Of a DNA stretch of 7,784 nucleotides, positions 1-7,784 are shown in pieces. Source of the DNA: an uncultured Lachnospira sp. (lineage in GTDB: Bacteria > Bacillota > Clostridia > Lachnospirales > Lachnospiraceae); the NCBI GenBank assembly GCA_934358235.1, contig CAKRKK010000114.1, positions 1 to 7,784 of the forward strand, given 5' to 3'. The position numbers were made by a program, and so were the translations under genes. Under the pieces are notes generated by a model. That model saw only the letters and a program-made list of their open reading frames with translations, was not told where the DNA came from and did not search any database. Within the stretch, counting starts at the first letter, position 1; each line of letters opens with the position of its first letter.

Positions 1-2
1 TT

Positions 3-380
3 GAAAATCCTGTAGAATTTGCACATGAGATGGCAATTGTGAAGCTCATCCGCTCCGCAGAATGCCGGTTCGAAGCTTTAAATGAGGCTTTGAACACAAG
101 CTCAGATGATAAATTCTACGGGCAGAAAGGTTTCCGGTTGGTAGAGATGAGAGATGATAGTCTCATCTCAGACCGAAACCACGCAGCGTTATACGCTTGC
201 AAAATCATCCTTGCATTAAACAGCGAGGTTAAGATGGCAACCGGTAAGCCATTCTTGAGAAGAAGATATAACCTCAATATCCGCTTCTCACAGGTGGACA
301 TTACGGAGCTTGAACTCCTCATGTCAGACTTTGACGACTGCTTTGATGAAGCAGTCGAGGAGCTTAGAGCCGCCATTTAA
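3..380 (+). CDS. Unrecognised protein, 3' part (5' end outside window)
   Basis: The frame is open from the first bases of the window. The first internal ATG (30) has no Shine-Dalgarno site before it, so the real start probably lies to the left and only the C-terminal 125 or so residues are seen. The protein is hydrophilic, with no membrane segment or signal peptide. It has a basic stretch (FLRRRYN) in the middle and an acidic helical C-terminus (SDFDDCFDEAVEELRAAI). I do not recognise the family. The stop at 378-380 lies just before a strong hairpin terminator, which supports this as a genuine gene end. It converges on the small minus-strand operon. Nothing visible links it functionally to the surface-protein locus. 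Confidence 0.6.
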   Translation, partial: ENPVEFAHEMAIVKLIRSAECRFEALNEALNTSSDDKFYGQKGFRLVEMRDDSLISDRNHAALYACKIILALNSEVKMATGKPFLRRRYNLNIRFSQVDITELELLMSDFDDCFDEAVEELRAAI

Positions 381-382
381 AC

Positions 383-424
383 AAAAAAAATACAGCCACC
401 ATCATCGGTGACTGTATTTTTTTT
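383..424. terminator. Bidirectional Rho-independent terminator
   Basis: Eight A (383-390), then a stem of TACAG..CACC pairing with GGTG..CTGTA across a short loop, then eight T (417-424). The A-run on one side and T-run on the other make it work on both strands. It sits exactly between the convergent stops of the plus gene (380) and the minus gene (459). The stem has one mismatch. Confidence 0.85.
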
Positions 425-458
425 ATATTTATAAGGGAAAAAATTATGAAAATCAAAG

Positions 459-743
459 TTAATCATCTACATTAAGATGTTTATTGATAGCGGCATCTAC
501 ATCCGATAATCTGATCCACTGGTCGACTTCCTTATCGCCTTCGTAGATTGGAGCATCTTCCTGTTTCGCAAATTCAGCTACTTCATCAAGAACGGCGGTT
601 GCAAAGTTCTTGATTGCATCTGTTTTGATTTTTTCTTCTGTTATGGCAGGAAGTTCTTGCAATGCAGTCATTCTGTCAGATTCGTAGCAGTAATTTTGCA
701 TAACTGCGTTAATTGCATCCTGCCTTTTGATTAATTCACTCAT
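459..743 (-). CDS. Small hypothetical protein of mobile-element type
   Basis: A 94-residue soluble acidic protein. On the minus strand GAGGAGG lies about 8 nt upstream of the ATG (743), a strong ribosome site that fixes the start. The N-terminus (SELIKRQDAINAV, then LQELPAI) resembles, from memory, small proteins common in clostridial phages and integrative elements that begin L-I-x-R-Q-x-A-I and have a later L-P. A second similar segment (WIRLSDVDAAINKHL) closes the protein, hinting at an internal duplication. No catalytic motif or known function is visible. It is the second gene of a minus-strand pair, 52 bp after the first, and ends at the bidirectional terminator. The family resemblance is recalled, not searched. 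Confidence 0.75.
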   Translation of the reverse strand: MSELIKRQDAINAVMQNYCYESDRMTALQELPAITEEKIKTDAIKNFATAVLDEVAEFAKQEDAPIYEGDKEVDQWIRLSDVDAAINKHLNVDD

Positions 744-795
744 TTATCATTCCTCCTCTAAATTCTAAATATATGCAGTTCATTGTATCGTCATT

Positions 796-1080
796 CTATC
801 TGCGTCTGATGTTCTGCGCCTCTCGTGCATCTCTCATTTTCTGGAACCTGCTGTCATTCGGAATGCTGACACCGTCTTTTTCAAGCAGTGTGCGGATGTC
901 GTGTCTTGCCACAGCTTCAAAATCTGTTTTCTGGATCTGTTCGATCTTTACAATGAGATCAGGATCATCGGTTGAATCAAGAATACGTTTATCCATTTCC
1001 TTAAAGTCCTGCTCGATCTCTGACTGATGTGCCAAGATCTCATCAACTGTGAAGTTTTCTTTTGTATCTAAATATCCCAT
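796..1080 (-). CDS. Small hypothetical charged protein
   Basis: A 94-residue highly charged, probably all-helical soluble protein, rich in Asp and Glu early (EILAHQSEIEQDFKEMDKR) with a basic tail ending NIRRR. I chose the ATG at 1078-1080 because AGAGGTG sits 6 nt upstream of it. The frame also opens three codons earlier at a GTG (1087-1089), but that codon overlaps the Shine-Dalgarno itself and is unlikely. A well-formed extended -10 promoter lies 30 bp upstream. It is the first gene of a two-gene operon with the 459-743 gene. I do not recognise the family. There is no DNA-binding motif clear enough to call it a regulator. Confidence 0.75.
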   Translation of the reverse strand: MGYLDTKENFTVDEILAHQSEIEQDFKEMDKRILDSTDDPDLIVKIEQIQKTDFEAVARHDIRTLLEKDGVSIPNDSRFQKMRDAREAQNIRRR

Positions 1081-1109
1081 ATGAATCACCTCTCTTATTT
1101 GTCATGTAT

Positions 1110-1138
1110 ATTATAGCATAAATCAACATATAAGTAAA
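1110..1138 (-). promoter_or_regulatory. Sigma-70-type promoter for the minus-strand operon
   Basis: On the minus strand: TTTACT (1133-1138), a 17-nt spacer, then TATAAT (1110-1115) preceded by TGC, which makes an extended -10. It lies immediately upstream of the 796-1080 gene and its ribosome site, in the right orientation. It diverges from the surface-protein promoter. Confidence 0.7.
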
Positions 1139-1249
1139 GCAATAAATAAAAAATAATGCGACTACATAAATTATTTATTTTATTGAAAAGACATACATCC
1201 GGAAATTGAGTGAAAAGCATATCAAAATACATTTAAACGGAAAATGAAC

Positions 1250-1268
1250 GTTTATTGCAAAAATAAAC
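1250..1268. repeat. 7-bp inverted repeat over the -35, operator candidate
   Basis: GTTTATT (1250-1256) and AATAAAC (1262-1268) are perfect inverted repeats around a 5-nt centre. They overlap the -35 of the surface-gene promoter, where a repressor or activator could act. The surroundings are A/T-rich, so chance is quite possible. Confidence 0.3.
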
Positions 1269-1282
1269 CTTGTTGTTATAAT
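1255..1282 (+). promoter_or_regulatory. Promoter of the surface-protein gene
   Basis: TTGCAA (1255-1260), a 16-nt spacer, then a perfect TATAAT (1277-1282). Transcription would start near 1289, giving an untranslated leader of about 70 nt that contains the purine-rich ribosome site at 1315-1328. It is the only promoter of this quality seen between the divergent genes on the plus strand. Confidence 0.7.
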
Positions 1283-1314
1283 TGGACGCAAAATAGGCAA
1301 CTTATAGTTATTTT

Positions 1315-1350
1315 GAGGAAAGGAGAGGCAGATTGTATATTTTATATACA
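1315..1350 (+). promoter_or_regulatory. Leader with strong ribosome site and small hairpin
   Basis: A long purine-rich ribosome site (GAGGAAAGGAGAGG, 1315-1328) is followed by a perfect 7-bp inverted repeat with a TTT centre (TGTATAT/ATATACA, 1334-1350). The ribosome site lies about 40 nt from the annotated ATG (1367), too far for ordinary use. It is ideally placed (7 nt from AGGAG) for a TTG at 1333, which is in another frame. The hairpin could shorten the effective distance or regulate initiation. Confidence 0.4.
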
Positions 1351-1366
1351 TCTGTAAGTATGAAAA

Positions 1367-2935
1367 ATGAAAAAAAGATTTTCACCAAAGCAGTTGCTGC
1401 CTTCAAAAAAAGTCATTATGGCAATAGCTGCGGCTGCATGCGTTACGGCGTTTTCAATTGGAGGGGTGCATTATTATAACACTAATCTGAAAGAGACAGC
1501 GACAACAGCAACGTATTACAACCAGTATCTGGCAGCAAGTGGAGCAGATGAGGTGATCACGGACCAGGTAAAGGATTATATCTCAAATTACTTCCAGACC
1601 ATGAATGTGAAAGAATTTATTTCACAGGATGAAATGGCACAGATGATCGCACAGATTTCCACCGGTGTCATGAACCGACTGCCGACCGATACACTTTCAT
1701 CCGGGCAGGAACTGAAAGTAAAGGAAATGATATCAAAAGCAGTCATTGAAGCAGCAAACGAGAATAACAATCAGGCTACCGATAATACCGGGGCAGATGC
1801 GACAGTGATCACGGAGGAATTGCAGTCATACATTAAGACAACAATCGTTCCGAACATTACAGCGGAGATACAGATCAATCAGGGAGCCATCGACGATCTG
1901 AAAAAATCGCTTGCGGATCTTTCGGAAAAATACAAGGGAAATCAGAAAGAGTATGACGCATTGATCGACAGCATCAGTTCGAAACTTGGAAAGCTGGATA
2001 AAAATGGAGCTACGAATGATGATGTTGCAAATCTGAAAAAAGACCTTGAAAAATTATCAAAGGTTTTGGGCGATTATAAGTCCTCTTCAAGTTCGGACGT
2101 CACGGATGTCTCAAAAGAACTGGAGGCTGCTAAAAAAAATCTTCAGTCTAAGATCGATAAATACACGGAAGTATCGGACGAGCAGTTTACACAGATGAAA
2201 GAAAATCTGGCAGATTCCATTGAAAGAAGTGATGGAATGCTTGACGACCAGAAAAAAGATCTGATAAACAAGATAAATTCATTATCAAATGACAGCGTTA
2301 CGAACCTTGCGGATGCAAAGAAGGAGCTGCAGAATGCAATCAGCAGCGTGGATGCATCACAGTCCGCCGCACTGCAGGATGCGATCAATGATCTGACAAA
2401 CGGAACATTAACGGATCTCATTAATACGGTTGCAAAAAATAAAAATGATCAGGATCAGGTAAATGTTAAAACTAATGAAAAAATTAACGACCTGACAAAA
2501 GTAACTGCGGATCAGTTTAATTCCATGAAAACAAGTCTCATGGATCAGATAAACCAGAACAAGCAGTTAAGCGATGCAGATAAGGCAGCTCTTGAAACAA
2601 AATTAAATGAAGCAAGCAGCGATAATGTGAAAAAACTTGCGGATGCAAAGAAGGAGCTGCAGAATGCGATAGCTTCAGCAAATACTTCACAGACAGACGC
2701 TTTAAATAATGCAATTGATAATCTGACAAGCGGAACAATCACAGATTTGTCAAACAGCGTGAACCAGAACAAAGCGGCGCAGGATGCAGTGAATACCAGT
2801 GTGCAGACATCGATCGACGATATTAACGGTCAGTTAAATGACTGTACAGTAGAATATAAAAACGGACATTTCTACATTACCTATAATAAAGGCGGTGCAG
2901 ATTCAGTGTCAAAAAAATTGGATTATGCACCATAA
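1367..2935 (+). CDS. Surface protein, N-terminal anchor and coiled-coil stalk (constant part)
   Basis: The first 522 residues of a large surface protein. A basic N-terminus (MKKRFSPKQLLPSKK) precedes a hydrophobic segment at about residues 16-34, best read as a signal anchor or signal peptide. A C at residue 25 follows four alanines but lacks a good lipobox. From about residue 45 the chain is Lys/Glu/Asp/Asn/Gln-rich with heptad-like spacing, a long coiled-coil stalk. A 110-residue unit occurs twice (2180-2509 and 2510-2839), each containing LADAKKELQNAI. The last segment (DGHFYITYNKGGAD) looks like the start of a beta domain cut short at the stop 2933-2935. The rest of the protein lies in the -1 frame. 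The role is inferred as the cell-proximal anchor and stalk of an adhesin-like protein. The ATG at 1367 has no adjacent Shine-Dalgarno, so the start is uncertain. Confidence 0.8.
   Translation: MKKRFSPKQLLPSKKVIMAIAAAACVTAFSIGGVHYYNTNLKETATTATYYNQYLAASGADEVITDQVKDYISNYFQTMNVKEFISQDEMAQMIAQISTGVMNRLPTDTLSSGQELKVKEMISKAVIEAANENNNQATDNTGADATVITEELQSYIKTTIVPNITAEIQINQGAIDDLKKSLADLSEKYKGNQKEYDALIDSISSKLGKLDKNGATNDDVANLKKDLEKLSKVLGDYKSSSSSDVTDVSKELEAAKKNLQSKIDKYTEVSDEQFTQMKENLADSIERSDGMLDDQKKDLINKINSLSNDSVTNLADAKKELQNAISSVDASQSAALQDAINDLTNGTLTDLINTVAKNKNDQDQVNVKTNEKINDLTKVTADQFNSMKTSLMDQINQNKQLSDADKAALETKLNEASSDNVKKLADAKKELQNAIASANTSQTDALNNAIDNLTSGTITDLSNSVNQNKAAQDAVNTSVQTSIDDINGQLNDCTVEYKNGHFYITYNKGGADSVSKKLDYAP
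1405..1411 (+). repeat. Seven-A homopolymer near the start of the surface gene
   Basis: Seven A preceded by TTC. Loss of one A would connect the better-placed ATG at 1360 (or TTG 1333) in the other frame to the hydrophobic segment, giving a different N-terminus. It is a candidate slipped-strand switch, or simply a spot where the start call is unreliable. Confidence 0.35.
2180..2839 (+). repeat. Tandem 330-bp duplication in the coiled-coil stalk
   Basis: Two 110-codon units (2180-2509, 2510-2839) align along their length. E-Q-F-T-Q-M-K matches D-Q-F-N-S-M-K, both share LADAKKELQNAI, and both have L-T-(N/S)-G-T-(L/I)-T-D-L. Nucleotide identity is near-complete over about 30 bp beginning at 2306 and 2636. 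Copy number changes would lengthen or shorten the stalk. Confidence 0.8.
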
Positions 2936-2958
2936 GGTTAAATACCAATGATGGTGCA
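2911..2958 (+). promoter_or_regulatory. Candidate -1 programmed frameshift signal
   Basis: The heptamer A AAA AAA (2911-2917) is in the correct codon phase for X-XXY-YYZ slippage. It is followed by an 8-nt spacer and a perfect 8-bp stem, TGCACCAT (2926-2933) with ATGGTGCA (2951-2958), with a possible inner GGT/ACC pairing. The zero-frame stop TAA (2933-2935) falls at the top of the stem. A -1 slip joins the stalk to the downstream InlB/Ig frame, which is open on the right side only from 2890. A length change in the A-tract is the alternative explanation. Confidence 0.55.
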
Positions 2959-4347
2959 ACGCCTACGATCAGTGATATTGAATGCTCCTCTACAGCATAT
3001 GCAGACGGACCGTATGAAATAGAGCTGGAAGATCAGGCGGACAATATTTTACTTACTCCGACCAGAAACGGATGGTCATTTGTAAACTGGAAAGATGCAA
3101 ATGGCGCAGAGTTATCGGCAGATAATCTTGTGGACAGCCAGACATATTACGCACAGTGGATTGACGACATCAAACCAGCGCTGAGCGTACAGGTAACCGC
3201 AAATGTTGCATCAAGACAGACAGCAACAATTACTGCAACGGATGCAGGTAGTGGAGTTGCAGCCTATTACATTGGAAAACAGAACCCGGCGACAACCTCT
3301 GTAAACTTCACAAGCTCTGCATCAGGAACATATACCGGTAGTATCACATCCGATTCCACTTGGTATTTTGCAGTAAAAGATGCAGCCGGCAATATGGCTG
3401 TAACAACAAAGGATTTCTGTAAAGTAATGTTTGGTCTTGCTTCCGGAGAAACTGTTTCTCCAAGTACGATCGTTATCGAAAAAGGTAAACAGATAACATT
3501 GCCAAATCCGGCAAAAGCAGGATATTCCTTTAAAGGATGGAGCAACGTACAGAATCCGGATGTGGCAAATATCGCAACATTCTTTACGAAAGTTAAAGTA
3601 GACAACAGCATGACAGTTTATCCATGCTTTGTGGATGATATCGCACCAACATTTACTGCAACGTTCAACACGGGCGGTGTCGGAGCAAATGGTACGATCA
3701 CAATAACCGGAGTAACAGAACAGGGTAGTGGAGTTGCAGGATACTATATTGGTACAAGCAATCCGGCAAATGGAGTCACATGGGGAAGTACAACATCTGC
3801 TACAGTAAATGCTTCCGGAACATGGTATGCAGCGGTAAAAGATAATGCTGGTAATATAACTATAAAGAATAGTACATACTACAGTCTGACATTAAATGCC
3901 GACGGAGCAACTAATTATACGACAAATACTTCGTATATTAAATCCGGTACAACAGTAAATCTGCCTACTGGACTTACAAAATCCGGATACAAAGCAGACA
4001 CATGGACAGGTGGAATCAGTAGTATAACAATGAGTGGAAACGGCAGTTTATATCCTATTTGGAGTTCAATGATTATATATCGAGATATTACTCTAACTGC
4101 ATCCGTACAGCAATCAAGAGATTCTTATTATGGAAACGTGCAGATGGATATGAGTTCATATGGGTTTAAATCCATTACAAATTATACTATTCTTAGCGGA
4201 CCTTCTGGTACCGCCTTTGTCAATAATAGCCATGTAGCAACTAAAGGAATTGTTATTAATGGCACTGTTATAAGATTGCTTGCGCAAGGAACAGCAAACA
4301 ATCAATACCTAACTGCAACTATTAGAGTATACGGAGAAAAGCAATAG
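2917..4347 (+). CDS. Surface protein, InlB/Ig domains and expressed C-terminal end (-1 frame)
   Basis: The continuation of the surface protein in the -1 frame, open from 2890 with no convincing start of its own; a GTG at 3130 lies inside a domain and has no ribosome site. With a slip at 2917 the joined product would be 993 residues. Domains in order: InlB-like repeat ending YYAQW (about 2941-3162); Ig-like domain with SGVAAYYIGK and WYFAVKDAAGN (3163-3414); InlB-like repeat with GYSFKGW (3418-3630); Ig-like domain with SGVAGYYIG and WYAAVKDNAGN (3631-3882); and InlB-like repeat with GYKADTW ending GNGSLYPIW (3883-4062). The variable tip C1 follows. There is no LPXTG or other C-terminal anchor, so the C-terminus is probably the exposed, distal end. 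The recombination core lies in the last strand of the third InlB repeat. Function as an adhesin is inferred. Confidence 0.75.
   Translation: MGLCTIRLNTNDGATPTISDIECSSTAYADGPYEIELEDQADNILLTPTRNGWSFVNWKDANGAELSADNLVDSQTYYAQWIDDIKPALSVQVTANVASRQTATITATDAGSGVAAYYIGKQNPATTSVNFTSSASGTYTGSITSDSTWYFAVKDAAGNMAVTTKDFCKVMFGLASGETVSPSTIVIEKGKQITLPNPAKAGYSFKGWSNVQNPDVANIATFFTKVKVDNSMTVYPCFVDDIAPTFTATFNTGGVGANGTITITGVTEQGSGVAGYYIGTSNPANGVTWGSTTSATVNASGTWYAAVKDNAGNITIKNSTYYSLTLNADGATNYTTNTSYIKSGTTVNLPTGLTKSGYKADTWTGGISSITMSGNGSLYPIWSSMIIYRDITLTASVQQSRDSYYGNVQMDMSSYGFKSITNYTILSGPSGTAFVNNSHVATKGIVINGTVIRLLAQGTANNQYLTATIRVYGEKQ
4041..4062 (+). repeat. Shufflon site S1, in the expressed gene
   Basis: CGGCAGTTTAT (4041-4051) followed by ATCC and TTGG, reading G-S-L-Y-P-I-W. 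It shares the core and right side with every cassette entry below, but has no inverted partner to its left. It marks where the constant part ends and the variable part begins. Confidence 0.85.
4042..4347 (+). CDS. Cassette C1, the currently expressed C-terminal tip
   Basis: About 101 residues from G-S-L-Y-P-I-W to the stop at 4345-4347, read continuously with the constant part. It is a beta-rich small domain with YYGNVQMDMSSYGFKSI in the middle and ending TATIRVYGEKQ. It is clearly related to cassettes C3 and C8, which share a (S/G)-x-x-x-G-(F/L)-x-(K)-I segment, a central Asn/Gly-rich turn and the T-I-R-V-x-G ending. No transmembrane or wall-sorting signal is present. It is most likely the ligand-contacting tip of the surface protein. 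Its stop lies 5 bp from the convergent stop of C2. The family is not recognised. Confidence 0.75.
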   Translation, partial: GSLYPIWSSMIIYRDITLTASVQQSRDSYYGNVQMDMSSYGFKSITNYTILSGPSGTAFVNNSHVATKGIVINGTVIRLLAQGTANNQYLTATIRVYGEKQ

Positions 4348-4352
4348 CTATA

Positions 4353-4557
4353 TCAATCATAACCACAAGCCAAAACTCTCTTAACACATCCGGCTCGTAG
4401 GCAGTTATGCGAATTTAACTCTCCGTTGCATCCGGCTTTACAGCTATCTGTGTGATCATGTGCATTTATTACGTGATTACACGGTTTGTTATAAACAGTT
4501 TTATAACATGAAGATGTATGTGTGTGAGGTACAAACCATTCGGGAGATAAACTGCCG
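4353..4557 (-). CDS. Cassette C2, silent, Cys/His-rich tip
   Basis: About 67 residues on the minus strand from G-S-L-S-P-E-W to the stop at 4353-4355. It is unlike all other cassettes: eight Cys and seven His in patterns such as HTHTSSC, HDHTDSC, CKAGC and CLRAGC. That points to metal binding or a disulfide-stabilised knob. Similar H-x-H-x-x-x-C segments are, from memory, seen in clostridial surface proteins beside InlB repeats. The ATG just before the core (4560-4562) has no ribosome site, so I read it as part of the site, not a start. Inverting S1 against the left core of site A would fuse this cassette in frame to the constant part. Confidence 0.7.
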
Positions 4558-4586
4558 AACATATAACAGCTTTAACGGCAGTTTAT
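4547..4586. repeat. Shufflon site A (compound, two inverted cores)
   Basis: ATAAACTGCCG (4547-4557) and CGGCAGTTTAT (4576-4586) are perfect 11-bp inverted repeats around the 18-nt asymmetric spacer AACATATAACAGCTTTAA. The left core opens C2 (minus) and the right core opens C3 (plus). The spacer is the reverse complement of the type found at sites E and B. Confidence 0.85.
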
Positions 4587-4870
4587 CCCCATACTGGCAA
4601 CAAGTTTTAAAAACAATTTATTATTCTTGGCAACTTCCAAACAACGGTGTTACATATGGATATACTTATAGTGTTGGAGTTGATGCAAGTGAGCTTGGTT
4701 TTAGTAAGATTATTTCGGCAAGTCATGTTGATGGTGGAATTTATGGGAATAACAATCATACCGAAGTTATAAATAACGGACAAGCTGTTAGATGCTGGGG
4801 CGATGGTGGATCCCAAGGCACTATTGGAAATTACACAATAACTATTAGAGTTACAGGAATACCATTATAA
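4577..4870 (+). CDS. Cassette C3, silent, C1-like tip
   Basis: About 97 residues from G-S-L-S-P-Y-W to the stop at 4868-4870. It is homologous to C1 and especially C8: V-D-A-S-E-L-G-F-S-K-I, then S-H-V-D-G-G, then T-E-V-I-N-N-G and the ending TITIRVTG. The frame is open further left, but that stretch is the antisense of cassette C2 and site A, with no ribosome site. The cassette is therefore defined from the core. It is silent in this arrangement, and would be expressed when the A-C segment is inverted and rejoined appropriately, or after a further rearrangement. Confidence 0.75.
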   Translation, partial: GSLSPYWQQVLKTIYYSWQLPNNGVTYGYTYSVGVDASELGFSKIISASHVDGGIYGNNNHTEVINNGQAVRCWGDGGSQGTIGNYTITIRVTGIPL

Positions 4871-4887
4871 TAATAGAAAAAAGGGAG

Positions 4888-4924
4888 AAAACTGCCGAAA
4901 GTTGTTATATGTTCGGCAGTTTAC
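4888..4924. repeat. Shufflon site B (intact right core, decayed left core)
   Basis: AAAACTGCCG (4888-4897) and CGGCAGTTTA (4914-4923) surround a 16-nt spacer, AAAGTTGTTATATGTT, nearly the same as in sites A (reversed) and E. The right core opens C4. The left core has lost one base of the ATC and leads into no open minus cassette, so it looks like a remnant. Site B is in direct orientation with the right core of A. Confidence 0.75.
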
Positions 4925-5646
4925 ATCCAAATTGGCTGGTACAATCCTACACATTGTCATTTAATGCAAATGGTGGATATTGTGCAGAAAGTTCAAGATT
5001 AGTCCAATACGGCGCAGCTTACGGTGCATTACCAACACCATCTGCATCCGGTTATCAATTCCTCGGTTGGTTTACAGAGGCATCTGGTGGAAATCAGGTT
5101 TATAATACATCAGTAATGGCAGCATCTGATTGTGTTATATATGCTCATTGGGAATTAATAGACAATACACCACCTTCTCTATCATATACCTCAAGTGTAG
5201 CAGGGGCTGTATATCAAGGAAATGGATATGGCTCATTTACATATACCTTCTCAGATTCCGAGAGTGGTATTTATGGATATTACTGGGGAACAACATATCC
5301 ATCTGCAACAAATGTAACCTATACACCATATAGTGGTACATCCATAACTTTGAATAATACAGGTGGTACTTATTATTTTGCAGTAAAAGATAATAAAGGA
5401 AACATAAGTATTTCAATGTCAAAATGTCAAAAGGGATCTTATGGTGCAGCACAAACTATTTATACATCTGGGTTTAGACTTTTTACTGCATCTGGCAATA
5501 ATACAGGTGGATATGGTGTAGCAGATCCTAATGGTAATGCTATATGTTATGGTATAGCAAATAATGGCTGTACCTTTGATTGCAGCAATTACTCATACGT
5601 AATTGCTAATGCCAGTGGAGGTATGAATTATGTTATGGTAAATTAA
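4915..5646 (+). CDS. Cassette C4, silent, InlB + Ig + tip
   Basis: The largest cassette, about 243 residues from G-S-L-H-P-N-W. It opens with an InlB-like repeat (LSFNANGG, GYQFLGWF, then VIYAHW), continues with an Ig-like domain (SGIYGYYWGTTYP, then TYYFAVKDNKGNIS), and ends with a Gly/Asn/Tyr-rich tip (from about YGAAQTIYTSGFRLF to NYVMVN) unlike the others. Expressing it would lengthen the exposed rod by two domains as well as change the tip. The ATG at 4909 is embedded in site B without a ribosome site. A hairpin terminator follows the stop (5644-5646) and separates it from the convergent C5. Confidence 0.75.
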   Translation, partial: GSLHPNWLVQSYTLSFNANGGYCAESSRLVQYGAAYGALPTPSASGYQFLGWFTEASGGNQVYNTSVMAASDCVIYAHWELIDNTPPSLSYTSSVAGAVYQGNGYGSFTYTFSDSESGIYGYYWGTTYPSATNVTYTPYSGTSITLNNTGGTYYFAVKDNKGNISISMSKCQKGSYGAAQTIYTSGFRLFTASGNNTGGYGVADPNGNAICYGIANNGCTFDCSNYSYVIANASGGMNYVMVN

Positions 5647-5652
5647 TAATAT

Positions 5653-5709
5653 AAAAAAGGAAATAGGCTGTCATACAAAATAAGTGTTGCAGCCTATTCC
5701 ATCTTTTTA
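5653..5709. terminator. Bidirectional hairpin terminator between C4 and C5
   Basis: An A-run, then GGAAATAGGCTG (5659-5670) pairing with CAGCCTATTCC (5690-5700) with one bulged base, then a T-rich run (5703-5709). Located between convergent stops at 5646 and 5712, it would end transcripts whichever cassette of the group is fused to the promoter. Confidence 0.75.
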
Positions 5710-5711
5710 TA

Positions 5712-6150
5712 TTAATTTCCTAATAAAATATTAGAAACAGTCATTGAATTTGCAGTAGAACCAGACGAATGCCCGGAATTAGACTGCTCAAAATTAATCG
5801 TTATGGTATGATTTCCGGAATATGATGATATATTTTGGTTTATTGAAACTCCTGAAATATTATTGTATTGGGCAATGTAAATTATAGTACCATCAATATA
5901 TATGCGCACAGTACCACGATCGAATAATGTAGCATTTATATTCATCCGTAAATAATTGTAATCAGACATATTGACTGTTTTGGAAAAATTAATATACCAT
6001 GACGCCCCGTAATTTTCCCAAGTTTGTGCAGTAAGTGCTGAATTGGAAACACTATATGCTGACTGTCCTGTTTTACAATTGTTGTTACACGACCAATTGT
6101 TATCCATTAGGCTTACTGATGTTCTGTTCCAACTTGGGGATAAACTGCCG
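5712..6150 (-). CDS. Cassette C5, silent, beta-sandwich-like tip
   Basis: About 145 residues on the minus strand from G-S-L-S-P-S-W to the stop at 5712. Alternating hydrophobic strands such as WYINFSKTVNMSDYNYLRM, VRIYIDGTIIYIA and HTITINFEQS suggest a jelly-roll or carbohydrate-binding-module-like fold. That is inferred from pattern, not a family match. It carries a Cys pair near the start (WSCNNNC). It has no InlB or Ig repeat and so would be a short direct tip. The frame continues upstream through site C into the antisense of C6, but that part has no ribosome site and is not considered coding. Confidence 0.7.
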
Positions 6151-6178
6151 AACAGATTCAATATCTCCGGCAGTTTAT
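6140..6178. repeat. Shufflon site C (compound, two inverted cores)
   Basis: ATAAACTGCCG (6140-6150) and CGGCAGTTTAT (6168-6178) are perfect inverted 11-mers around a 17-nt spacer. Outside them, CCAACTTGGGG and ACCCAAGTTGG extend the symmetry nearly perfectly to about 20 bp per arm. Its spacer has diverged from that of A, B and E, so the spacer itself is not strictly required. The left core opens C5 and the right core opens C6. Confidence 0.85.
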
Positions 6179-6807
6179 ACCCAAGTTGGGTGGATGCAAT
6201 TCCTCCAGCTATATCTAAATCATTTATTACTTCATTGACAAGTATGGGTGTAATAGGTAACTTTAATCCAAGCACTGGTCAATTTGATGAGTATTGGCAG
6301 ACATGTGATGTTACAGTTAACTTCACGGCAACTGACAGTGAAGGAATTATTGCATATTATTTGGGAAAGTCAAATCCACTTACAACAACTGTAAATTGGA
6401 CGACAATTTCAAAAACAACAAGATTTACTTCTCAGCAAAGAATCGGCTTGAATGGCAATAATCCATTATATACGGCTGATCCATCCGGTACATGGTATTT
6501 TGCTGTTAAAGATTTAGCTGGAAACATATCAATATCTACAGTTGAAGCCATTTTTAAATGGGTACGTGGAGCATCAAATTACAGTACATCTTGGATTACA
6601 TTGCCTAATCCGGGAGGATATTACACAAATTTTGCAATCAGTTACAATCATTCCAGTAACTGTATGTATGGGACATACAACGGTGTTACAAAGTCCGCTG
6701 AAAATGCAGGTGTAATAGATTTCACGGTAAATGGTGGAAGTGCAAGTGTAAGATGGAGAAGTATCCCGGATGTTGCTACGAGCTATTATTATATTTATTA
6801 TAAATAA
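6169..6807 (+). CDS. Cassette C6, silent, Ig-like domain + tip
   Basis: About 212 residues from G-S-L-Y-P-S-W to the stop at 6805-6807. After a linker it has an Ig-like domain of the same kind as the constant part (TCDVTVNFTATDSEGI, AYYLGKSNP, then TWYFAVKDLAGNISIS), with a longer internal loop. It ends with a distinct beta-rich tip (SWITLPNPGGYYTNFAI to YYYIYYK). The open frame to the left of the core is the antisense of C5 and is not counted. It is followed directly by site D and cassette C7 in the same orientation, with no terminator between. Confidence 0.75.
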   Translation, partial: GSLYPSWVDAIPPAISKSFITSLTSMGVIGNFNPSTGQFDEYWQTCDVTVNFTATDSEGIIAYYLGKSNPLTTTVNWTTISKTTRFTSQQRIGLNGNNPLYTADPSGTWYFAVKDLAGNISISTVEAIFKWVRGASNYSTSWITLPNPGGYYTNFAISYNHSSNCMYGTYNGVTKSAENAGVIDFTVNGGSASVRWRSIPDVATSYYYIYYK

Positions 6808-6811
6808 TAAG

Positions 6812-6845
6812 AAACTGTAGAGCCAATATATGTTCGGCAGTTTAT
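6812..6845. repeat. Shufflon site D (intact right core, degenerate left core)
   Basis: CGGCAGTTTAT (6835-6845) is perfect and opens C7. To its left AAACTGTAG (6812-6820) matches seven of nine bases of the inverted core, around a spacer ending ATATGTT as in B and E. Like site B it lies within a group, in direct orientation, and has no minus-strand cassette attached. Confidence 0.65.
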
Positions 6846-7342
6846 ACCCAAACTGGATAAAACTACCTCAAAATTGGATTCTAACAATACCTGTTACTTA
6901 TCAAATGTCCGTATCGGATAAAGGAAACTCATCTTCCAATGGACAAATTATTGTCGAATGTACAAATGATTTGATCAGTATAAAAAATGACACCTCAACC
7001 GGTGCAAAAGCGACAATGTCTAACTGGAAATGCGATGGATATTATCATACTTCATCTGGTAAGGTTATATTATCGACACCATCTATTAAAGTTGACACAT
7101 ATGTAGAAAACTTCAAATTTAATCTGTGCTTTAAGGGATATGTTTCTCATTCTGAAACGGGGCGATACAATAATAGCGGTAATGATGGATATGGTTCATT
7201 TACTACAATCATTTCATATATAGATGGTCAATTTATTATAACGCCTACATCAGGAAATACATGTTCATGGGGAACTGGAACAACATCTGATCCCGGATGG
7301 ATTACAAGTACGTTTGTTTTAAGCGAAATTTCATTAAATTAA
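6836..7342 (+). CDS. Cassette C7, silent, unique beta-rich tip
   Basis: About 168 residues from G-S-L-Y-P-N-W to the stop at 7340-7342. No InlB or Ig repeat is seen. The sequence alternates short hydrophobic strands (WILTIPVTYQMSV, VENFKFNLCFKGYV, GSFTTIISYIDGQFII) with Ser/Gly/Asn loops, as in an extended beta-sandwich. I recognise no family. The ATG at 6830 is inside the site and has no ribosome site. A strong hairpin follows and separates it from the convergent C8. Confidence 0.75.
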   Translation, partial: GSLYPNWIKLPQNWILTIPVTYQMSVSDKGNSSSNGQIIVECTNDLISIKNDTSTGAKATMSNWKCDGYYHTSSGKVILSTPSIKVDTYVENFKFNLCFKGYVSHSETGRYNNSGNDGYGSFTTIISYIDGQFIITPTSGNTCSWGTGTTSDPGWITSTFVLSEISLN

Positions 7343-7383
7343 TGGTCTGTGTAGTATAAAAAGTGAATGATTAATGAAAAATT

Positions 7384-7414
7384 AGAAATAAGGGAGGATA
7401 ACTCCCTTATTTCT
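7384..7414. terminator. Perfect hairpin between convergent cassettes C7 and C8
   Basis: AGAAATAAGGGAG (7384-7396), loop GATAA, then CTCCCTTATTTCT (7402-7414): a perfect 13-bp stem. The stop codon of C8 (7413-7415) overlaps its right arm. Flanking T-runs are weak, so termination may be less efficient than at 5653-5709, but the position between convergent stops is equivalent. Confidence 0.65.
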
Positions 7415-7719
7415 ATTCATATCCTATTACACGTATTGTTGAGGAATAATCTCCTTCTCCAAGTTCTGGTCGAAGTGTTCCTTTACCACAGACTTTTACA
7501 TATAGTCCATTATTTATTACAGTTGCAGAATTGTTACCTACACCCCAACATCCACCACTCACGTGATATGCTTCAGTTATTTTTGATAACCCAAGTTGTT
7601 CTGCTGATATTGTTATAGAATACGTACCATTATATGGTCCATCTATATATTTGTAACGAATGTCTACCGTGTAATATTTTGCAATAGGCAAAGCAATCCA
7701 TAGCGGCGATAAACTGCCG
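7413..7719 (-). CDS. Cassette C8, silent, C1/C3-like tip
   Basis: About 101 residues on the minus strand from G-S-L-S-P-L-W to the stop at 7413. It is closely related to C3: I-S-A-E-Q-L-G-L-S-K-I, then Y-H-V-S-G-G, then A-T-V-I-N-N-G, and the ending TIRVIG. It shares length and ending with C1. It is on the opposite strand and in a different group from C1 and C3, so the same domain family has been spread and diversified through the array. The frame extends left of the core through site E into the antisense of C9, which is not counted. Confidence 0.75.
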
Positions 7720-7748
7720 TTAAAACTGACATATGTTCGGCAGTTTAT
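7709..7748. repeat. Shufflon site E (compound, two inverted cores)
   Basis: ATAAACTGCCG (7709-7719) and CGGCAGTTTAT (7738-7748) are perfect inverted 11-mers around the 18-nt spacer TTAAAACTGACATATGTT. That spacer matches the reverse complement of site A's spacer at all but a few bases. The left core opens C8 and the right core opens C9. Confidence 0.85.
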
Positions 7749-7784
7749 CCCCGAAATGGATATCCACACAGAAAATCATTACAT
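7739..7784 (+). CDS. Cassette C9, start only (cut by window edge)
   Basis: The first 15 residues of a further plus-strand cassette, G-S-L-S-P-K-W then ISTQKIIT, in the same codon phase as the others. It shows that the array continues beyond the window. Nothing can be said about its domain. Confidence 0.6.

Follow-up and report, generated by a model that had tools for sequence, protein, structure and literature searches.

Described shufflons and the Lachnospira locus

Shufflons that act on the C-terminus of a protein are best known from enterobacterial conjugative pili and phage fibres. Here we describe a locus from an uncultured Lachnospira sp. (assembly GCA_934358235.1, contig CAKRKK010000114.1, positions 1 to 7,784 of the forward strand; this stretch of 7,784 nucleotides is referred to as the window) that resembles such systems. 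Our reading, to which we give a probability of roughly 0.87 on sequence evidence, is that the locus is a shufflon-like array, in which one constant gene for a predicted surface protein acquires alternative C-terminal tips at a 10-base site that recurs along the array; the exchange would most likely come about by inversions that a tyrosine recombinase carries out.

In the PilV shufflon of the IncI plasmids R64, R721 and TP114, as passages of two reports describe it, a constant 5' part is followed by several inverted 3' cassettes with convergent open reading frames (ORFs), an arrangement also seen in the window (PMC9045228, PMC11852207). Passages on this shufflon also give it asymmetric sites, in which the core and inner arm are conserved and the outer arm diverges, as in the window, and a switchable adhesive C-terminus, which the tips proposed here would resemble. 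In contrast, the constant protein of the window is a stalk with InlB B-repeats and a predicted frameshift between stalk and tip, and its host is likely Gram-positive. We do not assign the locus to the R64-type class itself: the word GTGCCAATCCGG, which we take to be the R64 sfx site, is absent from the window, which holds its first seven bases (GTGCCAA) a single time, at 1029 and away from the array, and profile scans placed no prepilin model (PF07963) on 1367-2935. In a 2025 survey of Rci-like invertases (PMC11852207), the words Gram-positive, Firmicutes and Clostridi are absent from the text.

A second comparison is the Rin shufflon of Bifidobacterium prophages, for which passages of PMC6109161 describe an 11-bp asymmetric repeat upstream of each variable C-terminus and multiple inversions. 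The Gram-positive gut setting, the short asymmetric repeat and multiple inversions liken it to the window as we read it. In these passages Rin varies a phage receptor-binding protein, whereas the protein of the window has an N-terminus that looks, by eye, like an anchor. The Rin site word rix, TTCCCTAACCC, is absent from the window. In a PHROG scan of ten window proteins nine had no match, and the tenth weakly hit (E 0.0069) a family of unknown function; within the 7.8 kb in view a phage origin of the locus has no support. The abstract of PMC4737114 presents CwpV of Clostridioides difficile as a phase-variable Gram-positive surface protein linked to phage resistance; there it is expression itself that varies, in contrast to the choice among C-terminal cassettes proposed here.

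Core sites and cassettes of the array

The core CGGCAGTTTA occurs ten times with at most one mismatch over 4041-7747, on both strands, nine copies being exact and one carrying a single mismatch. Dinucleotide shuffles (200) gave a mean of 0.33 copies and a maximum of 3. The copies lie at 4041+, 4548-, 4576+, 4888- (the one with a mismatch), 4914+, 6141-, 6168+, 6835+, 7710- and 7738+, so that the orientation along the array runs + - + - + - + + - +. Nine of them open cassettes in one shared codon phase, and the tenth (4888-4897, minus) has no real cassette. The sites and cassettes are as follows.

4041..4062, plus: S1 site, junction of constant gene and tail (core scan, site alignment)
4042..4347, plus: tail cassette S1, 101 aa, in the expressed position (relatives P0001, P0003)
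4353..4556, minus: silent cassette A, 67 aa, Cys/His-rich; site 4536-4557 (relative P0006)
4577..4870, plus: silent cassette B, 97 aa; site 4576-4597 (identical tail on P0004)
4888..4897, minus: cassette-less inverted site CGGCAGTTTT, one mismatch; frame of 21 codons
4915..5646, plus: silent cassette C, 243 aa, B-repeat and Ig-like; site 4914-4935 (relative P0021)
5712..6149, minus: silent cassette D, 145 aa, predicted CBM/MAM-like sandwich; site 6129-6150 (relatives P0009, P0023, P0036, P0037)
6169..6807, plus: silent cassette E, 212 aa; site 6168-6189 (site alignment, open frame)
6836..7342, plus: silent cassette F, 168 aa; site 6835-6856 (relatives P0005, P0008, P0022, P0030)
7413..7718, minus: silent cassette G, 101 aa, B-like family; site 7698-7719 (site alignment, open frame)
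7739..7784, plus: cassette H, cut by the window end after 15 codons; site 7738-7759

The cassette sites are asymmetric, with a conserved core and a divergent outer arm. Aligned on the core, all nine are invariant in columns 0-9, eight carry T as the eleventh base, and CC followed by TGG stands at a fixed spacing after the core; the 24 bases of the outer arm hold no invariant column and two columns at 8/9. The CC and TGG columns, which belong to Pro and Trp codons, may be fixed by the protein rather than by the enzyme, since the wobble base of the Pro codon varies. Every cassette site is read as GGC AGT TTA, then x-P-x-W. This phase stays open for 67-243 codons in all eight complete cassettes and the other two phases for 7-41 codons; as a control, about 12% of 7,160 positions in the region are open for at least 67 codons. 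From the codon use of the array ORFs, the exact trio GGC AGT TTA for G-S-L has p=0.0046 per site, the sites being non-independent where they share descent. Because this trio is used at all nine sites, the DNA of the core looks to be under constraint beyond the peptide that it encodes.

The initial annotation had placed an identical core at the junction and at eight further cassettes on both strands, all entered in the same phase with x-P-x-W next, and both claims hold. Its list of nine cassette sites stands as well, with the cassette-less inverted site at 4888-4897 to be added, which it had overlooked. The likeness that it drew to R64 sites, with their variable arm and convergent groups, is borne out by passages of PMC9045228, in which Rci/sfx sites of the R64/TP114 type are asymmetric with a variable outer arm and cassettes lie in convergent pairs.

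Inversions between opposed sites would bring the silent cassettes to the junction of the constant gene. We infer inversion because sites occur in both orientations, cassettes form convergent pairs (S1/A, C/D and F/G), and in a model of such inversions each complete cassette reaches the junction in one or two steps. In a model in which only opposed sites recombine and H is kept fixed, one inversion brings A, D, G or the cassette-less site to the junction and two bring B, C, E or F; 24 new orders arise after one inversion, 333 after two and 3,618 after three. The cassette-less site lets segment B flip alone in this model. It is without a proven role, since no cassette needs more steps when that site is left out. 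A possible decayed inverted core at 6811-6820 (minus, three mismatches, at chance level) lies 14 bases before the F site; had it once been a site, it would have made E flippable alone.

Only the joined cassette would be made into protein, because the others lack, by eye, a start together with a ribosome site; in A, C, F and H an ATG stands two codons ahead of GGC, with no ribosome-binding-like run at the right distance. The tips would be binding domains. Cassette D is predicted to be a carbohydrate-binding-module-like sandwich, and the InlB B-repeat model PF09479 (List_Bact_rpt / Flg_new) scores 61 bits in cassette C and 41.8 bits in the constant part, at a cut-off of 27. The tail of cassette A (HTHTSSCYK...) looks by eye unlike the other tails, and a metal-binding knob would fit its sequence.

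The asymmetry of the sites points to an Rci/Rin-like tyrosine recombinase as the inverting enzyme, which would be encoded outside the window. A serine recombinase of the Hin/Gin/Min type could be the inverter instead. Invertases of the serine family use near-palindromic sites built round a 2-bp centre. The core here is asymmetric and the outer arm diverges, in keeping with reports on the sites of Rci and Rin; this makes a serine enzyme unlikely, even if Min of p15B also gives multi-segment switching of a fibre gene according to passages of PMC6109161. This would be a variant within the favoured reading, and its odds overlap with those given above.

Tail exchange among related proteins

A search with the -1-frame protein returned 23 relatives (numbered with a P) from 7,993 scored candidates, and their constant parts were compared from TYYAQW to SGN. 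GSLxPxW stands exactly at the end of the constant part in 14 of the 23. In a further one, P0014 (source name: InlB B-repeat-containing protein, partial, Roseburia inulinivorans), the sequence ends at GSL, and the exact motif is absent in eight (P0010, P0016-P0020, P0022 and P0023).

Identical constant parts carry different tails. The window and P0004 agree at 300/300 residues of the constant part, and the tail of P0004 is the window's silent cassette B (97/97). P0006 and P0007 also agree at 300/300, with tails 9% alike. P0003, P0005, P0012, P0013 and P0014 are identical over 304/304 residues, and P0011 matches them at 303/304; on the first four of these, four different tails follow the same GSL codons, and with P0011 there are five different tails, 12-26% alike. 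Within the identical-constant sets the tails are 9-33% identical, P0014 aside, which has GSL only. Tails at the junction of relatives are 74% identical to S1, 70% to A, 81-100% to B and 72% to D, with further tails C-like (39%, P0021) or F-like (31-32%); cassette G resembles B-type junction tails (41-42%). The C-terminal switching of a shufflon type claimed in the initial annotation thus gains support from constant parts that are identical and tails that are not, one of them cassette B, and the comparison with other assemblies that it had suggested yields, at the protein level, alternative tails on identical constant parts.

Several observations weigh against our proposal. No recombinase is present in the window, which stops inside cassette H. 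The adjacent E and F sites are direct, making deletion possible too. Among the 23 relatives no counterpart of E or H stands at the junction, and G has B-like ones only. The tails of P0002, P0007, P0012, P0013 and P0015, five of the 14 GSLxPxW proteins, match no window cassette beyond constant-part repeats; we infer that they derive from cassettes beyond the window or from other strains. Finally, the evidence for exchange consists of protein sequences from assemblies rather than the DNA of one clone.

The missing recombinase and the five unmatched tails would also fit a fixed reservoir of gene ends, in which no dedicated switch exists and tails change between strains only on an evolutionary time scale, through horizontal exchange or rare recombination. 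So would the differences of 19-69% between related tails and the window cassettes (the identical B tail of P0004 excepted), and the presence of related tails on quite different N-termini (P0022, P0023, P0036 and P0037). Such a reservoir is nevertheless improbable in view of the 304/304 identical constant part in four proteins with four tails, a fifth ending at the junction, and of the 300/300 match to P0004, which bears the window's own cassette. The site codons are moreover frozen despite synonymous options, as expected for an active site.

The S1 site has 9-13 exact in-register bases in common with each of the other nine sites, which bears on two other explanations. Homologous recombination or gene conversion from silent cassettes, in the style of pilS or vlsE, would likewise use silent cassettes and one expressed copy, and at the protein level its products would look alike. 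The tails are otherwise dissimilar, and so short a homology is probably too little for RecA-type exchange; the sites also lie in both orientations, as inversion requires. We therefore regard gene conversion as very improbable. An assembly artefact, with contigs chimeric at repeats in the window and in the database, would find some backing in five fused database proteins that look chimeric (P0010, P0028, P0030, P0032 and P0033). The exact overlap of S1 with any site, at most 13 bases, is shorter than the k-mers usual in assembly, and tails joined in phase at the same codons recur in 14 clusters; we give this explanation next to no credence. Assembly confusion and homologous recombination at S1 are both unlikely because so few bases are shared.

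Tails of the array family also occur outside it. The type IV prepilin-like proteins P0022, P0023, P0036 and P0037 have a pre-junction module 60-62% identical to that of the window, followed by D- or F-like tails; unlike the protein of the window they begin with a prepilin N-terminus (PF07963) and lack GSL at the junction.

Searches for the locus itself covered several collections. Genome contigs scanned by protein (one genome per species) gave 10 stretches that matched the pattern, none a relative, and a paired-core DNA pattern gave 22 stretches, none an array, with a third core in one of them only. Further genome scans found matches in 0/7, 0/400, 2/391, 0/1 and 0/398; the two matching genomes of the 391 (six loci) were rejected as carrying other Ig-like proteins, judged by eye to be without this junction. 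A candidate 16S probe word meant to pick out Lachnospiraceae genomes gave 0/11 and 0/196. Viral contigs held no relative, one scan covering 80 candidates, and 43 stretches with one site each. Plasmid and phage records gave no match to the locus apart from weak partial matches to cassette C in six plasmid records, three of the six annotated as an InlB B-repeat protein. In the literature, no description of this locus was found among the matches listed, an entry in Milman et al. 2023 (gene-altering inversions across bacteria) being possible; no paper combined 'Roseburia inulinivorans' with 'shufflon', and a term search of the text of three inversion surveys found no Roseburia (PMC5903667, PMC11892184, PMC10939037).

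The stalk and its predicted frameshift

The initial annotation had rightly seen that the constant gene carries the junction and belongs to another protein class than PilV, given the InlB B-repeat above cut-off and the lack of a prepilin match. It had treated the gene as one ORF and missed a frame break: the gene consists of two ORFs with a change of frame at 2917.

1255..1282, plus: promoter-like TTGCAA-16-TATAAT (TG-extended) ahead of the constant gene (consensus scan only)
1367..2935, plus: 0-frame ORF, 522 aa, with N-terminal hydrophobic stretch and coiled-coil-like stalk with 110-aa repeat; ends SVSKKLDYAP
2911..2917, plus: slippery heptamer A_AAA_AAA in the 0 frame (TCA AAA AAA TTG; heptamer pattern scan)
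2926..2958, plus: hairpin, stem 2926-2933 / 2951-2958, predicted frameshift stimulator, 8 nt 3' of the heptamer
2933-2935, plus: 0-frame stop
2917..4347, plus: -1-frame ORF, its constant part of InlB B-repeat (Flg_new) and Ig-like type, followed by the joined tail S1 (ORF reading, PF09479)

The promoter consensus scan gave 37 matches in the window against 28.5 expected. By eye, the N-terminal hydrophobic stretch of the stalk is likely an anchor. The 110-aa (330 bp) stalk repeat shows 40/100 residues identical at a shift of 110, with a 38-nt stretch 95% alike, and stalk length varies among relatives (P0029 367, P0025 522 and P0024 632 aa) as if the repeat number sets the reach.

We predict that the two ORFs are joined by a -1 ribosomal frameshift, with a read-through product of 993 residues. 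The layout of such a site is present, with an in-frame heptamer shortly before a stop, a spacer and a stem-loop. Open from 2890 onward, the -1 frame contains no ATG, GTG or TTG ahead of 3130; its part before 3130 is nevertheless conserved in relatives such as P0002 and P0005. The 8-bp hairpin folds at -14.2 kcal/mol (z -2.98), and 2/200 shuffles fold as well. Two further points count against the proposal at this step: a longer piece round the site folds unremarkably (z -1.30), and six further X_XXY_YYZ heptamers lie in frame in the same ORF. With seven pattern matches in frame in the stalk ORF, a heptamer alone is weak evidence.

The short stalk form recurs in P0024, P0025, P0026, P0027 and P0029 (cluster representatives; 22 contigs), which end SKKLDYAP or SKKLDYAQ, and P0034, a distant stalk homologue (30% identical), ends AKKLTFAQ. 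As the frame break recurs in relatives, a sequencing error is an unlikely cause. The stalk search found 12 homologues, of which ten were read and P0031 and P0035 left out; it admits proteins up to 1.75 times the query (913 aa), so unbroken forms near 990 aa could not show. An A-tract phase variant or transcriptional slippage in place of ribosomal frameshifting is possible, since fused forms of about 990 aa fall outside that length range.

The stalk also occurs in fusions (P0028, P0030, P0032 and P0033). In P0030, on a contig of 1,923 bases, the stalk runs at VSD straight into GSLFPDW, with an F-like tail after it. The fusion point lies near the word GAGCAGTTTA at 2180-2189 within the stalk, two mismatches from the core, and the fusion may reflect secondary-site recombination or an assembly chimera. 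P0032 joins the N-terminus of the stalk to part of a VirB11-like ATPase, and P0033 joins it to a VirD4-type piece; these fusions to conjugation genes hint weakly at a conjugative element as the carrier of the gene. Three small genes upstream (459-743 minus, 796-1089 minus and 3-380 plus) have no Pfam, PHROG or NCBIfam match.

If the predicted frameshift operates, the gene would yield two products: the bare stalk of 522 aa, and a form of 993 aa in which B-repeats and the variable tip extend it. Frameshifting would then determine if a coiled-coil stalk is tipped at all, and the shufflon would choose the tip. A likely use would be to vary the target of an anchored stalk, be it a host or diet glycan or a partner cell in DNA transfer, or to evade phages. 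More tentatively, and in our view rather doubtfully, two stacked devices may be at work, the frameshift setting the tipped share and the shufflon picking among nine or more glycan-binding tips, with the gene on a Gram-positive conjugative element and its product an adhesin that chooses recipients or glycans, a PilV counterpart that shares its tip pool with type IV prepilin relatives.

The shufflon is a known kind of system, and what is new here is a predicted frameshift joined to a DNA shufflon on a stalked InlB-type protein, which, if true, is a testable two-stage control of surface display. Through its shared tips the array is linked to proteins of the type IV prepilin kind. In assemblies and gene catalogues such genes may be broken at the junction, of which P0014 is an example. 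With the enzyme in hand, the sites would give DNA shuffling tools a new shufflase specificity. If our reading is true, binding by a commensal gut Firmicute would be a switchable trait at the level of the strain.

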